Shown: positions 1 to 15,154 of the stretch, one piece after another
Position numbering within the stretch: the first letter of the stretch is position 1
Layout: every line of letters starts with the position of its first letter
Assembly (NCBI RefSeq): GCF_003675875.1
Contig: NZ_RCDI01000002.1
Location: forward strand, 932,786-996,785
DNA length: 64,000 nucleotides
Origin: Halostella limicola
Lineage (GTDB): Archaea > Halobacteriota > Halobacteria > Halobacteriales > Natronoarchaeaceae
Reading direction: 5' to 3'
Notes under the pieces: generated by a model
The model's database searches: none
Told to the model about the DNA's origin: nothing
Seen by the model: the letters and a program-made list of their open reading frames with translations, nothing else
Program-made: the position numbers and the translations under genes

Positions 1-700
1 TGTAGACGTCCTGGATCGGGAGGCGGAGCGGCGCGTCCGTCGGCGGCTCCGGCTCCTCGAGGCCGTTCAGGGCGTCGAGCAGGATCTCGCCGTCGTACCA
101 GGGCGTGTTGTCGCTCTCTTCGGCGATGTTGTCGCCCTCGAAGGCGGAGATCGGGATGAAGCTGGCGTCCTCGGTGTTGAACTGAACCTGCTTGAACAGG
201 TCCTTGACTTCCTCGACGACCTGGTTGTAGTCGGACTCGTTGTAGTCGACGAGGTCCATCTTGTTCACGCCGACGATCAGTTCGTTGATGCCGAGCGTGC
301 GGGCCAGGAAGACGTGCTCCTGGGTCTGGGGCGCGACGCCGTCGTCAGCGGCGACGACGAGGACGGCGTTGTCGGCCTGGGACGCGCCCGTGATCATGTT
401 CTTGACGAAGTCGCGGTGGCCCGGACAGTCGACGATGGTGAAGTAGTAATCGTCGGTGTCGAACTCCTGGTGGGCGATGTCGATGGTGACGCCGCGCTCG
501 CGCTCCTCGGCGAGGTTGTCCATCACGTAGGCGAACTCGAAGCCGCCCTTGCCCTTCTGCTCCGCTTCTTCCTTGTGCTGTTCGATGACGTGCTCGGGAA
601 CGCTCCCCGTCTCGTAGAGGAGTCGGCCCACGAGCGTGCTCTTGCCGTGGTCGACGTGGCCGATGATGGCCAGGTTCTGGTGGGGTTTGTCTTCGCTCAT
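1..700 (-). CDS. tef1: Translation elongation factor 1-alpha (partial, C-terminal end cut by window edge)
   Basis: Archaeal EF-1A, the GTPase that delivers aminoacyl-tRNA to the ribosome in the cytoplasm. The first 233 residues are present, starting [20 protein letters not shown]. The G1 motif (GHVDHGKS), switch I, G3 (DCPGH) and G4 (NKMD) are all visible. The rest of domain I and domains II-III lie beyond base 1. The ATG at 700 is the only start that keeps the conserved N-terminus. It reads in the same direction as EF-2 and the RNA polymerase genes, as in the haloarchaeal str region. A TATA-like GGTTTTAACTG about 50 bases upstream could be its own promoter. Confidence 0.97.
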
Positions 701-883: not shown

Positions 884-1831
884 TCACTCCAGCCGGCCGA
901 CGTCCGCGAGCACGGCCGTCGCCGTCTCCGGGCCGCCGGCGCCGCGCCCGCTGACGTTCAGGCGACCGGCGTGGCGGGTCTCCAGCTGGACGATGTTTCG
1001 CGTGCCCGTGACGGCGAGCGTGCCGTTCGCCGGGACGAGCCGGGGGCCGACGCGGACGCCGTCCGGGGACGCCTCGCCGATGAGCCGGACGGTGCGGCCG
1101 TCCTCGGCCGCGAGTTCGAGGGCGCTGCCGGGGACGTCCCGGATGCCGTCGACCTCGGCGTCGTCGAGCGAGAACTCCGCGTCGCCGTCGCTGAGCACGT
1201 TCGCGAGGATGACGCACTTCAGCGCCGCGTCCGTCCCGTCCACGTCGAACGCGGGGTCGGCCTCGGCGACGCCGAGGTCCTGCGCCTCGGCGAGGACGTG
1301 CTCGTAATCGATCCCCTCCGCGGCCATCCGCGAGAGGATGAAGTTCGCGGTGCCGTTGAGGACGCCCCGCGCCGCGGTCACCTTCGACGGCCCGAAGTCG
1401 GCGATGGTCGACAGCACCGGGATGGCCCCGCCGACCGTCGCCTCGAAGAGGACGTCGCCGGCGCTGTCGCGCTCCAGCGCGCGCAGGTCGCCGTAGCGCT
1501 CGGCGACCGGTCCCTTGTTCGCCAGCACGACGTGGCGATCGCGTTCGAGCGCCGCGCGGGCGTGCCCGAACCCGGGTTCGGCGTCGCCGAGGGTGGTCGG
1601 CGTCGCCTCGACGAGGACGTCGTACTCCGCGGCGAGCGCGTCGTCGGGGTCGGCGTCGCCGACGCTGCCGGCTTCGTCCTTCCGGTCGAACGCGGCCGCG
1701 ACGTCGACGCCGTCGGCGTCGGCGACGGCCCCGCGGGAGTCGGCGACGGCGGTGACCTCGTGTCCGTACTCGCCGGCGAGTTCGGCGACGGAGCGCCCGA
1801 CGGCGCCCGCGCCGAGGACGGCGATTTTCAC
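884..1831 (-). CDS. hom: Homoserine dehydrogenase
   Basis: NAD(P)-dependent reduction of aspartate semialdehyde to homoserine, the branch point to threonine and methionine. The 315-residue protein starts MKIAVLGAGAVG with a Rossmann GxGxxG loop. It carries the family motif NGTANFILSRM in the catalytic domain. It has no C-terminal ACT domain of its own; a separate ACT gene lies directly upstream and the two overlap by four bases (GTGA), so translation is probably coupled. The start is GTG at 1831, fixed by that overlap and by the Rossmann strand beginning at residue 2. Its place between the EF-2 and EF-1alpha genes is unusual for an amino-acid biosynthesis gene. Confidence 0.93.
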   Translation of the reverse strand: MKIAVLGAGAVGRSVAELAGEYGHEVTAVADSRGAVADADGVDVAAAFDRKDEAGSVGDADPDDALAAEYDVLVEATPTTLGDAEPGFGHARAALERDRHVVLANKGPVAERYGDLRALERDSAGDVLFEATVGGAIPVLSTIADFGPSKVTAARGVLNGTANFILSRMAAEGIDYEHVLAEAQDLGVAEADPAFDVDGTDAALKCVILANVLSDGDAEFSLDDAEVDGIRDVPGSALELAAEDGRTVRLIGEASPDGVRVGPRLVPANGTLAVTGTRNIVQLETRHAGRLNVSGRGAGGPETATAVLADVGRLE

Positions 1832-2415
1832 GCCGTCTCACCGCCGTTCGTGAGCGGCTCGACGACGCGGAGGTCCTTCTCGTCCGCGAGCGTCCGAACC
1901 GTCGACAGCGCCTCGTCGGTCCGCCCCGACTCGACGGCGAGGCGGATCCGCGCGGAGGAGACGTCGTCGGTGCCCTCCGGCGACGAAAGCGAGAGGTCGA
2001 CGACCGACGCGCCCGAGCACTCCTCGATCCGGTTCAGCGAGTCCGAGAGGTCGGTGTCGATGATGTGGCCCGCGAGCAGGACCGTCACCTCCTCGCTGTA
2101 GCGCTCCGCGCCGGCCTGGATGACGTTGACGCCGGCGTCGCGGAGCGCGGCGACGATGTCGTCGAACCGGTCCGGCGGGCACTCGATGTCGACCTCGACG
2201 GGGATGTGTCCTCGCGGCGTGAGGTTCCCCCGCTCGTGGAAGATCGAGAGGAGGTTGCCGCCGCTCTCGGCGATCGGTTCGAGGGCGCGGAGCAACTCGC
2301 CGGGCTCGTCGACGAGTTCCAGGCGGACGGTGTAGGACCGTACCCCGCTGCCGTCTGCGACCTCGTCGCCGGCCTCGTCCCCGCCGGCCTCGGCGTCACC
2401 CGGCAACGGGACCAC
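1828..2415 (-). CDS. ACT-domain amino-acid-binding protein, probable regulator of homoserine dehydrogenase
   Basis: A 195-residue acidic protein. An ACT fold is visible at about residues 27-95 (YTVRLELVDEPGELLRALEP, then GGNLLSI). The C-terminal half resembles a second, more divergent ACT-like module. ACT domains bind amino acids and often confer feedback control. The four-base overlap with hom strongly suggests it is the detached regulatory subunit of that enzyme; this is inference from context. The GTG at 2415 is chosen because an in-frame stop lies just upstream and no better start precedes the ACT strand. The first 25 residues are low-complexity Gly/Asp/Glu. Confidence 0.8.
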   Translation of the reverse strand: MVPLPGDAEAGGDEAGDEVADGSGVRSYTVRLELVDEPGELLRALEPIAESGGNLLSIFHERGNLTPRGHIPVEVDIECPPDRFDDIVAALRDAGVNVIQAGAERYSEEVTVLLAGHIIDTDLSDSLNRIEECSGASVVDLSLSSPEGTDDVSSARIRLAVESGRTDEALSTVRTLADEKDLRVVEPLTNGGETA

Positions 2416-2605: not shown

Positions 2606-3859
2606 TCAGAACCGCGGCGACTGGGCCTGAACGACGTCGGACACGGCGCTCAGTTCGCCCGCGAGGATGACCAGCACGTCGTCGATAGAGAGGATACCCG
2701 TCAGTTCGCCCTCGTCGTCGACGACCGGCACCCGGCGGATGTCGTTTTCCGCGAGCGTCTGGAGGACGTCGAACATCTCCTCGTCCTCGTCGACGGTCAC
2801 CGGGTCCTCGGTCATGAGATCCTCGACCGCGCTGTCGGTGAGGTCGGGCGTCTCCTCCATCGCGAGCGTGATCTTCCGGTCGGTGATGATGCCGACGGGG
2901 CGGTCGTCCTCGGTGATCACGACCGTCCCGACGTCCTGCTCGGACATCATCGCGACGATGGTGGCGATGGGCGTGTCGCGGTCGGCGGTGACGACCTCGT
3001 CGCGGGCGAGCCGGTCCATCCCGACCGGCTCTACGGGGATCGACTGCGCCCGCTGGCGGTACTGCTGCATCTGACCGCCCCGCATCTGGCCGCCCTGTGC
3101 CTGCCCGCTCTGCATCTGGCCGCCCTGCTGCGTCGTCCCGGACTGACCCGCCTGAGCGCCCATCTGTCCGGCCTGCTGCCCGGTCTGACCGGTTCCGCCT
3201 TGATGGCTCGTGCCTGCGTGCTGACCCGCGTGACTCGTGCCGGCCTGCTGTCCACCGTGGCTCGGCTCGGACTGTCGACCTACCTGAGCGTTACCGGGCT
3301 GGTGGCTCGTTCCCGTCGTCTCGGCTCGGGAGGGCTGGCCCGAACCCTGCCCGGTCTGGTGCGACTGCTGTCCCGTCCCGCGGTGACCCATCTGCCCGGA
3401 CTGATGGCCCATCTGCCCGGACTGCTGCCCTGCACCTGAGTGGCCCTGCTGGCGCATCTGCCCGCCGCTCTCCCCGCCGAACTGGGAACCACCCGAGGGG
3501 TGGGTTCCGCCGGCGTGCTGGGAACCGCCGGACCGGGCACCGCTCTGCTGGTGTTGCTGCTGGGGCGACGGCTGCCCGCGGCGGCCGCCGGACCCCTGGC
3601 GTCGCTGCGACTGGCCGCCGGACTGGTGGTGCGACTGCTGGCCCGGCGGGGTGTACCCCGTGCCGCGCTGCGGCGGTTGACCGCCCTGCCGTCCCTCGTG
3701 CGGTCCCTGTTGTCCGCGCTGTCCCTGCTGTCCCTGCTGGGAACCGCCGGACCCCGGGGGAGACTGCGAGCCGCCGCGCCCCTGAGAGCGACCGCCCTGC
3801 TGTCCTTGCCGGTGCTGTTCGTCGGTCCGTCGTCGGTCGGATGTGTTACGGTCTCTCAT
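2606..3859 (-). CDS. Gln/Gly/Ser/His-rich low-complexity protein with C-terminal CBS-domain pair
   Basis: A 417-residue protein in two unlike parts. Residues 1 to about 270 are low complexity, built from Gly, Gln, Ser, His, Thr and Arg (repeats such as GQQ, GTSH, SGQMGHQ) with very few acidic residues, which is strikingly unlike a normal haloarchaeal protein. Residues from about 275 to the end form two CBS motifs (DEVVTADRDTPIATIVAMM, then VEDLMTEDPVTVDEDEEMF), a module that usually senses adenine nucleotides. It sits between EF-2 and the ACT-hom pair on the same strand. The ATG at 3859 is preferred over a GTG three codons upstream. Function is unknown; a disordered, self-associating tail attached to a nucleotide sensor is a reasonable guess. 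Confidence 0.85.
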   Translation of the reverse strand: MRDRNTSDRRRTDEQHRQGQQGGRSQGRGGSQSPPGSGGSQQGQQGQRGQQGPHEGRQGGQPPQRGTGYTPPGQQSHHQSGGQSQRRQGSGGRRGQPSPQQQHQQSGARSGGSQHAGGTHPSGGSQFGGESGGQMRQQGHSGAGQQSGQMGHQSGQMGHRGTGQQSHQTGQGSGQPSRAETTGTSHQPGNAQVGRQSEPSHGGQQAGTSHAGQHAGTSHQGGTGQTGQQAGQMGAQAGQSGTTQQGGQMQSGQAQGGQMRGGQMQQYRQRAQSIPVEPVGMDRLARDEVVTADRDTPIATIVAMMSEQDVGTVVITEDDRPVGIITDRKITLAMEETPDLTDSAVEDLMTEDPVTVDEDEEMFDVLQTLAENDIRRVPVVDDEGELTGILSIDDVLVILAGELSAVSDVVQAQSPRF

Positions 3860-4058
3860 GAATATCACCGCTGTTTCCGCGTCCGAGTGTCACGGCGACA
3901 CGCGGGGCCACGACACTGCGGCGAATAAACCCCGACGACAGTTACGGCTTACACGGTTCGAAACGGGGGTTAAGGCCACGTTTGCCGGCGATAAGCGCGG
4001 CCCACCGGCCCGGTAAGCGTCGCTACGCGGCCGGAAAGAACGGGAAGGAGAGGAGCCG

Positions 4059-6248
4059 TTAGATGTAGTCGATCGACTCGGGGAGTTCGAGCTTCATCCC
4101 CTTGCGCTCGCGGATCTCCATGATCTGGTCGCGCTGGAGGTTGTCGGCCATGACCTGGAAGCCGGCGTTCTCCGTGTTCCAGGAGGCGCGGCCCTCGGTC
4201 GCGGAGCGGATGTCGCTGGAGAAGCCGATCATCTCCTCGACGGGCGCGACGCCCTCGACGACCATCAGGTCGCCTTCCTGGTACATGTCGTCGACGCGGC
4301 CGCGGCGACCCTGGATCTCGCCGGAGGCCGAGCCCATGTACTCGTTGGGGACGTCGATGCGGACGTCCTGGATCGGTTCGAGCAGGCGAACCTCGCCGCG
4401 GATGAGCGCGCGGTGGACGGCGTCGCGGACGGCCGGGATGACCTGCGCGGGACCGCGGTGGATGGTGTCCTCGTGGAGCTTCGCGTCGTGCAGGCGCAGC
4501 AGCGAGCCCTGGACGGGCTCGGCGGCCAGCGGACCGTCGTTGAGTGCCTCTTCGAGGCCCTCGATGACGAGCTCCATCGTCTCGTTGAGGTGCTGGATAC
4601 CCTTCGTGTCGTCGATGAGGATGTTCGTCCCGTGGATGTGCTCGACGTTCTGGGACGTGTCCTTGTCCATGCCCGCTTCCTGAAGCGCCTCGCGGCGCTC
4701 CTGCTCGGGCATGTTCATGGAGACGTCGCCGAGCTGGATCTTGTCGACGATCTCCTCGTCGAGCGGCTGGAGCGAGATGTAGAAACGGTTGTGGCGGTTC
4801 GGCGAGATGCCCTCGACCTCCTGGGTCGGCTGCTGGGGGGCCTCGCGGAAGACGACGATCGGCTCACCGGTGTTGACCGGGATGCCCTGATTGCGCTCGA
4901 TGCGCTGAGTGATGACCTCCAGGTGGAGCTCGCCCTGTCCGGAGATGAGGTGCTCACCGGTCTCCTCGTTGATCTCGATCTGGATCGTCGGGTCCTCCTT
5001 GGAGACTTGCCGGAGCGTCTCGATGAGCTTCGGCAGGTCGTCCATGTTCTTCGCCTCGACGGACTTCGTGATGACCGGCTCCGAGATGTGCTCGATGGAC
5101 TCGAACGGCGTCATCTCAACGCTGGAGACGGTGGAACCGGCGATGGCGTCCTTGAGGCCCGTGACGGCGGCGATGTTGCCGGCGGGGACGCGGTCGACCT
5201 CCTCGCGCTCGCCGCCCATGTAGATCCCGACGCTCTGGATGCGGTTCTTGCCGGCGGTCCCGGAGACGTACAGCTCCTGGCCCTTCTCCAGCGTGCCGGA
5301 GAAGACGCGGCCCGCGGCGATCTCCCCCGCGTGGGGGTCGACGCCGATGTCGGTGACCATCAGGACGACCTCGCCGTCCTCGTCGACTAGCCGCATCGTG
5401 TCCGCGAGCTCGGAGTCGGCGTCGCCGCGCCAGATCCGCGGGATACGGCGGGGCTGCGCGTCGACGGGGTTCGGGAAGTGCTCACAGACCATGTCGAGCA
5501 CGACGTCGGACAGCGGCGTCCGCTCGTGGAGCTCCTGGCGCTTGTCGTTGCGCTCGAGCTCCATGATGTCGGCGAAGTCCATCCCGGTGCGCTGCATCGA
5601 CGGGAAGGAGACCCCCCACTTGTAGAGCGCGGAGCCGAAGCCGACCGTGCCGCCCTCGACGGAGACGGTCCAGTCCTCGTCGATGTCGTCCATCTCCTCG
5701 GTCATGCCGCGGATGAGGTCGTTGACCTCGCGGATGACCGAGAGGAGGCGGTTCTGCATCTCCTCGGGCCCCTCCTGGAGCTCGGAGATGAGGCGGTCGA
5801 CCTTGTTGATGAACAGGGTCGGCTTGACGCCCTCGCGGAGCGCCTGGCGCAGCACCGTCTCCGTCTGGGGCATCGCGCCCTCGACGGCGTCGACCACGAC
5901 GAGCGCGCCGTCGACGGCGCGCATCGCGCGGGTCACGTCGCCGCCGAAGTCGACGTGGCCCGGCGTGTCGATGAGGTTGATGAGGTAGTCGGTGTCCTCG
6001 TACTCGTGCGTCATGGAGACGTTCGCGGCGTCGATCGTGATGCCGCGTTCCTGCTCGTCCTCCTCCGTGTCCATGGCGAGCTGTTCGCCCGCGGTCTCGT
6101 CGGAGATCATGCCCGCACCGGCGAGCAGGTTGTCCGTCAGCGTCGTCTTGCCGTGGTCGACGTGCGCGGCGATGGCGATGTTCCGGATCTGCTCCGGTTC
6201 GTCCATCAGCCGTTCGCACTGTTCGACGATCTTCTTACGTCGGCCCAT
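4059..6248 (-). CDS. fusA: Translation elongation factor 2
   Basis: Archaeal EF-2, the GTPase that drives ribosomal translocation. All 729 residues are present, the normal archaeal length. G1 is [11 protein letters not shown]3 DTPGH, G4 NKVD. The C-terminal domain contains the diphthamide loop ([15 protein letters not shown]), whose His is the residue modified to diphthamide and targeted by diphtheria toxin. The ATG at 6248 gives the standard [11 protein letters not shown]-terminus. It reads with the ribosomal and polymerase genes but lies 7.8 kb from rps7, so it is probably transcribed from its own promoter in the 188-base gap upstream. Confidence 0.98.
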
Positions 6249-14725: not shown

Positions 14726-15154
14726 TTATCGGACCGGCTTCTCCGCGTTCCCGCGGACGAGTTCGATCAGGCTCACGCCGTTGACCTTCTCGACCTTGTA
14801 GTTCACGCCGGAGAGGTCGCCCATCGCGCGGCCCTTCGCGCCGCCGATGCCGGCGATGGTGACCTCGTCGTGCTCGTCGATGAACGAGATGGCGCCGTCG
14901 CCGGGGCAGAACGCCGTGACCTGCTTCCCGTTCTTGATGAGCTGAACCCGGACGCACTTCCGGATCGCGGAGTTGGGCTGTTTCGCTTCGATACCTACCT
15001 TTTCGAGGACGATACCGCGGCCCTGGGGCGCGCCCTCAAGCGGGTCGGACTGCTCACCGAGACCCCGCTCACGGCGGGCGTACTCCGTGTCGGACCACCG
15101 TCGCTTCTGGCGGTCCTGCTTGAGTTTGCGCGCGGCGTATTTGCCGTTTGCCAT
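14726..15154 (-). CDS. rps12: 30S ribosomal protein S12 (uS12)
   Basis: Decoding-centre ribosomal protein of 142 residues, the normal archaeal length. Conserved blocks [20 protein letters not shown] and [15 protein letters not shown] are intact. The PNSA loop, where miscoding and streptomycin mutations occur in bacteria, is present. The start [12 protein letters not shown] is standard. It is separated from nusA by about 195 bases, long enough for its own promoter, and is followed at once by rps7. Confidence 0.98.

Follow-up and report, generated by a model that had tools for sequence, protein, structure and literature searches.

Stand-alone CBS-pair proteins (PF00571) occur in haloarchaea and other prokaryotes and contain a CBS pair of about 140 aa; relatives with solved structures are ST2348 (2ef7), MJ0100 (3kpb), and Rv2626c (1y5h). 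Within CBS ligand sites, the aspartate of the CBS motif holds the ribose of adenine nucleotides. Archaea also possess the ribosome hibernation factors Dri and HibA. HibA, which contains CBS domains, was described in 2026, and the CBS modules of both proteins bind archaeal ribosomes (PMC13324472). Each of these modules has four CBS domains, and HibA carries an additional HPF/RaiA domain (PDB 9e6q and 9sr9). CBS pairs are known, as are Csp-like bundles (Csp1/DUF326 copper-storage proteins) and phasins (haloarchaeal PhaP). To our knowledge, condensates of low-complexity proteins have been little explored in archaea. Here, we describe a CBS-pair protein of Halostella limicola, encoded within a 64,000-nucleotide stretch of DNA (the window), that carries a long glutamine- and glycine-rich N-terminal region. 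The subfamily to which it belongs, and a cluster of glutamine-rich genes associated with this subfamily, look undescribed: we found no description of either in the literature searched, which covered sources other than subscription papers and preprints.

The gene, its parts, and its neighbors are listed in Table 1. As the first-pass annotation had proposed, about 270 of the 417 residues are of low complexity and almost free of acidic residues, and this region is joined to a CBS pair, with two CBS domains in tandem (Pfam PF00571, E=1e-24). The region had been described as a "tail", but it forms the N-terminal head of the protein; we retain "tail" as shorthand for the N-terminal low-complexity region. 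Residues 1-274 consist of 24.8% Q, 25.9% G, 11.3% S, 8.4% R, and 5.8% H, with 0.7% Asn. They include 8 acidic residues, 23 Arg, 16 His, no Lys, and 3 aromatic residues, which gives a net charge of +15, while residues 275-417 hold 36 acidic and 9 basic residues (net -27). For comparison, we used 53 genes picked heuristically from the window by a simple rule: their mean D+E content was 20%, and the densest Q stretch reached 29 per 100 aa in the CBS protein versus 11 in the next gene. The Q-rich composition is far from chance for the Halostella limicola genome. DNA repeats of 9-30 bp are present inside the low-complexity region. A single-sequence AlphaFold2 model had a mean pLDDT of 41, and its confidence was low throughout, CBS pair included.

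Table 1. Features of the tailed CBS gene and of its neighbors, with positions counted from the first letter of the window.
Feature	Position	Strand	Remarks
Whole gene, N-terminal Q/G-rich region plus CBS pair, 417 aa	2606..3859	(-)	ATG start, from the open reading frame
Low-complexity region, residues 1-274	3038..3859	(-)	Composition count
CBS pair and C-terminal segment, residues 275-417	2609..3037	(-)	Pfam PF00571
Conserved N-terminal segment MRDRNTSDRRRTDE	3818..3859	(-)	MRD[RNT]xTPDRRPTGE in congeners
CBS1 motif GIITDRK	2873..2893	(-)	Lys in place of the ribose-binding Asp
CBS2 motif GILSIDD	2678..2698	(-)	Canonical S/T and D present
C-terminal motif QSPRF	2609..2623	(-)	Q invariant; SPR in most tailed members
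Shine-Dalgarno GGTGAT	3864..3869	(-)	4 nt before the ATG; conserved in four congeners
TATA-like box GGGGTTTATTC, 11-mer	3923..3933	(-)	64-74 bases before the ATG; identical in four congeners
Elongation factor 2 (neighbor)	4059..6248	(-)	
ACT-domain protein (neighbor)	1828..2415	(-)	ACT match below the Pfam cut-off; conserved partner of homoserine dehydrogenase
Homoserine dehydrogenase (neighbor)	884..1831	(-)	
Elongation factor 1-alpha (neighbor)	1..700	(-)	Cut by the window edge

The tail shares with Q/N-rich prion-like and FUS-type domains that it is long, of low complexity, glutamine-rich, and acid-poor; it differs from both in being nearly devoid of asparagine and aromatic residues. Its earlier designation as prion-like is not supported, as the window protein contains at most 24 Q/N per 80 residues, whereas the classical criterion is at least 30 in 80, a density reached by 4 of 15 tailed CBS proteins. 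Because only 3 of the 274 residues are aromatic, stickers of the FUS type are lacking. Disorder and self-association of the tail are still plausible. Low-complexity regions of halobacteria are normally strongly acidic, with 34% D/E (PMC6821194), and the acid-poor set thus stands out. Acidic surfaces are the main reason why disorder prediction from sequence is unreliable in halophiles (PMC6384707), a caveat that is irrelevant to the acid-poor tail.

Among the findings that would speak against its idea of a condensate or assembly factor, the first-pass annotation had named absence of the tail from homologues and an origin as a random frameshift product. We found 23 tailed homologues, and the reading frame is kept in congeners. 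The genus has four other species, and in three of them (G001-G003) an orthologue of 342-352 aa occupies the same slot, with CBS pairs 77, 67, and 65% identical to that of the window protein; the assembly of the fourth (G004) is incomplete, and EF-2 was not found there either. The first 14 residues are nearly identical among congeners. The sequence GGGGTTTATTC is identical in all four congeners while the flanking sequence diverges, and it is likely to be the CBS gene's own promoter. Across eight pairs of tailed homologues, dN/dS was 0.23-0.56 for the tail and 0.15-0.42 for the CBS part, the tail values being rough because the alignment runs inside low complexity. Tail length changes quickly among congeners, and composition is not fixed either, with Q as low as 9% and acidic residues at 10% in the G001 orthologue. 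Judging from these patterns, the tail is under selection as a protein, though loosely, and is most probably translated. Since the frame, start motif, Shine-Dalgarno sequence, and TATA-like box are all kept in congeners, the region is not a frameshift product, and together with purifying selection, these conserved signals rule out a pseudogene origin.

CBS-pair relatives were found in 110 of 195 genomes of the order; most are untailed and about 140-150 aa long. Together with the hits of a second sample, 116 genomes of family f4 (home to Haloarcula-type genera), this yielded 23 proteins from four families whose N terminus is extended by 100-275 aa rich in Q, G, and P. Tailed genes or close relatives occur in the named records of Halobaculum sp. 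XH14, Halobaculum salinum, Halorientalis sp. IM1011, and Haloarcula marina. In a tree built from the CBS part alone, the 23 tailed rows fell with six untailed rows into one group of 29 (support 92/81). The tree topology allows, without proving, one single gain of the tail, which is confined to one CBS subfamily. The window protein shows the traits of this subfamily, namely, the Q/G-rich N-terminal region, a first CBS motif without Asp, and a C terminus of the Q-S-P-R type. A scan of the genome contigs returned only distant CBS proteins, and an untailed acidic CBS paralogue is encoded on contig C5 of the same genome.

Compared to the stand-alone CBS-pair proteins, which it resembles in the size of the pair and in the order of the motifs, the window-type protein adds an N terminus of 100-275 aa, ends in SPR[FLY], and has lost the ribose-binding Asp of CBS1. 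The ribose/phosphate motif G-h-h-S/T-x-x-D is replaced by GIITDRK in its CBS1, and the Asp is absent from all 23 tailed homologues, which have K, S, T, H, or M instead, while it is present in 33 of 47 untailed relatives. In contrast, the GxxS/TxDD motif of CBS2 is kept in 23 of 23 tailed proteins and reads GILSIDD in the window protein. As a consequence of the CBS1 loss, each chain is expected to have no more than one canonical half-site. The earlier interpretation of the pair as a nucleotide sensor is weakened by this loss, yet it is still plausible.

The position of the gene between EF-2 and EF-1alpha, from which a link to translation had been proposed, is indeed found in four congeners, but the ACT-domain gene and homoserine dehydrogenase also lie in this interval. 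The order EF-2, ACT, homoserine dehydrogenase, EF-1alpha recurred in 10 of 15 further EF-2 loci and is widespread in the order, whereas the CBS gene was found between EF-2 and the ACT gene only in this genus among the relatives read. In one sister genus (g3), this place is taken by an IMPDH-barrel gene that lacks CBS domains (L142:7658-8779 and L143:2435-3550), and in another (g2), by small ORFs. Elsewhere, tailed CBS genes adjoin TrkA (G007), lie between DNA topoisomerase I (topA) and a PcrB-family gene (G101 and G175), lie near dodecin (G103 and G190), or sit beside HalOD1 or BAT regulators. Outside the genus, the tailed gene is a member of stress/accessory islands, and the elongation-factor position is best read as a genus-specific relocation. 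A translation link by gene order is thus rejected, and the CBS gene is separated from a reading that its position in one genus invites. Away from the main elongation-factor cluster, a second EF-1alpha gene is preceded, at a distance of about 190 bp, by an untailed CBS-pair gene in G148 (L119:8347-10221) and also in G084.

Dri and HibA have in common with the window protein that they are archaeal and contain CBS domains; they differ in the four CBS domains per module and in the HPF domain of HibA, as the window protein has two CBS domains and no HPF domain. Moreover, HibA is encoded by a separate gene of the same genome (L200:2840-4090, G000:C2), a 416-aa frame with four CBS domains and an HPF-like C terminus. 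Its alignment with the 392-aa chain of PDB 9sr9 spans both from end to end (E=1.9e-46), and this chain, judged from its length and layout, is probably the P. abyssi HibA. Membership of the window protein in the HibA/Dri group is rejected on the domain count and on the presence of HibA elsewhere in the genome.

In genomes of family f4 (Haloarculaceae), the tailed CBS gene is located amid genes for BAT/HTH_10 regulators, HalOD1, PRC-barrel-like proteins, DUF5789, DUF4112, dodecin, and YihY. The same neighborhoods hold three other glutamine-rich families: a Csp/DUF326-like four-helix bundle flanked on both sides by Q/G/M tails, a helical phasin-like domain whose C terminus is Q-rich, and an "all-Q" protein composed almost wholly of Q/G/R/H (20-49% Q, with a few per cent Y+F). 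The cores of the first two match Csp1/DUF326 and haloarchaeal PhaP, from which these clustered partners differ by their Q/G-rich tails. Profile comparison identified the tailed phasin-like domain as a relative of PhaP (hhalign probability 98.7% over 66 columns against an untailed PhaP-type profile), and one untailed PhaP-type protein sits in a phaP-phaE-phaC cluster of the same genus. Clusters of all four glutamine-rich proteins were found in this family: the phasin-like, CBS, all-Q, and Csp genes are consecutive on one strand within 3.5 kb in G205 (L187:4758-8202), and a segment of less than 4 kb in G198 (L268:7613-11490) holds Csp, all-Q, CBS, and phasin-like genes. CBS, all-Q, and Csp are consecutive in G278 (L269:2774-5538), and tailed CBS, Csp, and phasin-like genes occur within about 30 kb in G097, G136, G221, and G239.

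Among 22 stretches around tailed CBS genes (362 kb), Csp was present in 5, phasin-like genes in 8, HalOD1 in 9, BAT in 13, and PRC in 10, counts to which no p-value is attached because some of the stretches depend on each other (a single Halorientalis locus enters twice, and neighbors share ancestry). Csp, phasin-like, and PRC genes were found in 0 of 14 untailed-CBS stretches (264 kb) and 0 of 18 EF-2 stretches (227 kb). Tailed Csp is also present in many genomes without tailed CBS; because it is much wider in distribution, the two are not obligate partners and no strict pairing exists. Tails that recognized each other through matching sequence might be expected to co-vary; co-evolution of the CBS and Csp tails within genomes was tested in 15 genomes and gave no signal, either for make-up (p=0.51) or for shared 4-mers (p=0.75), tails from the same genome being no more alike than those from different genomes.

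In the window's genus, the glutamine-rich members are dispersed. The own genome, which was also scanned for the pattern QQxQQ, encodes a tailed Csp-like protein on contig C6 (G000:C6:9326-10033, minus strand; L257), with GGQM repeats that resemble the CBS tail. It keeps 4 Cys versus 15 in the untailed, acidic paralogue on contig C2 (G000:C2:712447), which makes copper storage by the tailed protein doubtful. An all-Q protein of 277 aa is encoded 2.9 kb from the tailed Csp (L257:12974-13807, plus strand), and a second one of 356 aa, with 31% Q and 5% acidic residues, on contig C2 (L283:1396-2466, minus strand). No Q-tailed phasin was found in this genome. The neighborhood on C6 holds a fused NuoCD gene, uracil-DNA glycosylase, and DUF7553, as does the surroundings of the tailed CBS gene on a Halobaculum salinum plasmid, and the tailed CBS locus of G190 shares NuoCD and DUF7553 with it. 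These shared neighbors support a single ancestral island; in this genus, the CBS gene would have left it for the elongation-factor cluster. More broadly, a NuoCD-type gene (complex I 30/49 kDa) adjoins a tailed gene, either Csp or CBS, in different families (L257:7415-9292, L259:9770-11437, L113:5334-7019, and L330:8580-10304).

From the observed parts, their conservation, and their clustering, we infer how such a protein might work. We tentatively favor a CBS-pair sensor whose adhesive, acid-poor Q/G-rich N terminus would address it to an assembly of glutamine-rich proteins, although we would stop short of calling this probable. In a cytoplasm at molar salt, charge contacts would be screened, and the rest of the proteome would stay soluble through its acidic surfaces. 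Neutral-to-basic Q/G/R tails could then stick to one another as well as to the all-Q protein. With a single canonical half-site in each chain, the CBS dimer may bind an adenine nucleotide or a similar ligand, and the ligand-bound dimer would alter the assembly or its clients; the phasin-like member suggests a granule, for instance PHA, as a possible site of the assembly. Its fuller form, a dedicated haloarchaeal assembly orthogonal to the acidic proteome, with an all-Q/G/R scaffold and Q-tailed CBS, Csp-like, and phasin-like proteins encoded by one mobile stress island and CBS as the ligand-controlled member, is rather unlikely in its entirety. If true, a cluster of unrelated folds that share acid-poor Q-rich tails would be a tractable genetic system bearing on selective assembly at molar salt, a condition that screens charge-based stickers.

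Alternatively, the tail may be an entropic spacer or solubility segment, disordered and selected for its make-up only, with no assembly, and the CBS pair an ordinary small-molecule sensor acting toward some partner. The rapid change in length, the DNA repeats, the drift of Q content between congeners, the lack of co-variation between tails, and the few aromatic residues are all consistent with this. However, a similar tail is found on three unrelated cores and on the all-Q protein in one gene cluster, the N-terminal segment is conserved, and a neutral-to-basic region would be an unusual route to solubility where low complexity is normally acidic. We consider a spacer unlikely, though a serious contender. 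That the Arg/His/Gly-rich tail binds RNA or DNA, with the CBS pair switching the binding, is suggested by its net charge of +15 with 23 Arg and 16 His and by the DNA topoisomerase I gene next to it in G101 and G175. Yet unspecific charge binding is weak at molar salt, RGG-like triplets are few in the window protein, the Arg content varies, and the neighbors are not consistently nucleic-acid genes, all of which leave this improbable.

About equally improbable is a set of proteins on the surface of PHA or other storage granules, in which the phasin-like protein would anchor a Q-rich network and the CBS protein would report the energy state. The distant relationship of tailed phasin-like proteins to PhaP and the untailed PhaP in a phaP-phaE-phaC cluster of the same genus point in this direction; against it, a PHA synthase was not seen among the neighbors examined, of which part of the genes were annotated, and the window's genome yielded no tailed phasin. 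We regard a translation-linked factor, acting in ribosome hibernation or in elongation-factor control, as very improbable: the gene lies between EF-2 and EF-1alpha in four congeners, the ribosome-binding Dri and HibA are built of CBS modules (PMC13324472), and genus g38 has an untailed CBS gene upstream of a second EF-1alpha gene, but the elongation-factor linkage is confined to one genus, the CBS gene has its own promoter-like box, and the protein has two rather than four CBS domains and no HPF domain in a genome where HibA is separate. Last, an artifact in the form of a pseudogene, frameshift, or untranslated repeat might be suspected from the low complexity of the region and from at least one public record that places the start inside the tail; with the frame, the start signals, and purifying selection all conserved, its chance is negligible.

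In pHOS100 of Halorientalis sp. IM1011 (L331:14350-15285), the public annotation begins the CBS gene inside the tail, at 14743, and thus leaves out about 130 residues. Q-rich tails like this one may be under-annotated in public records.
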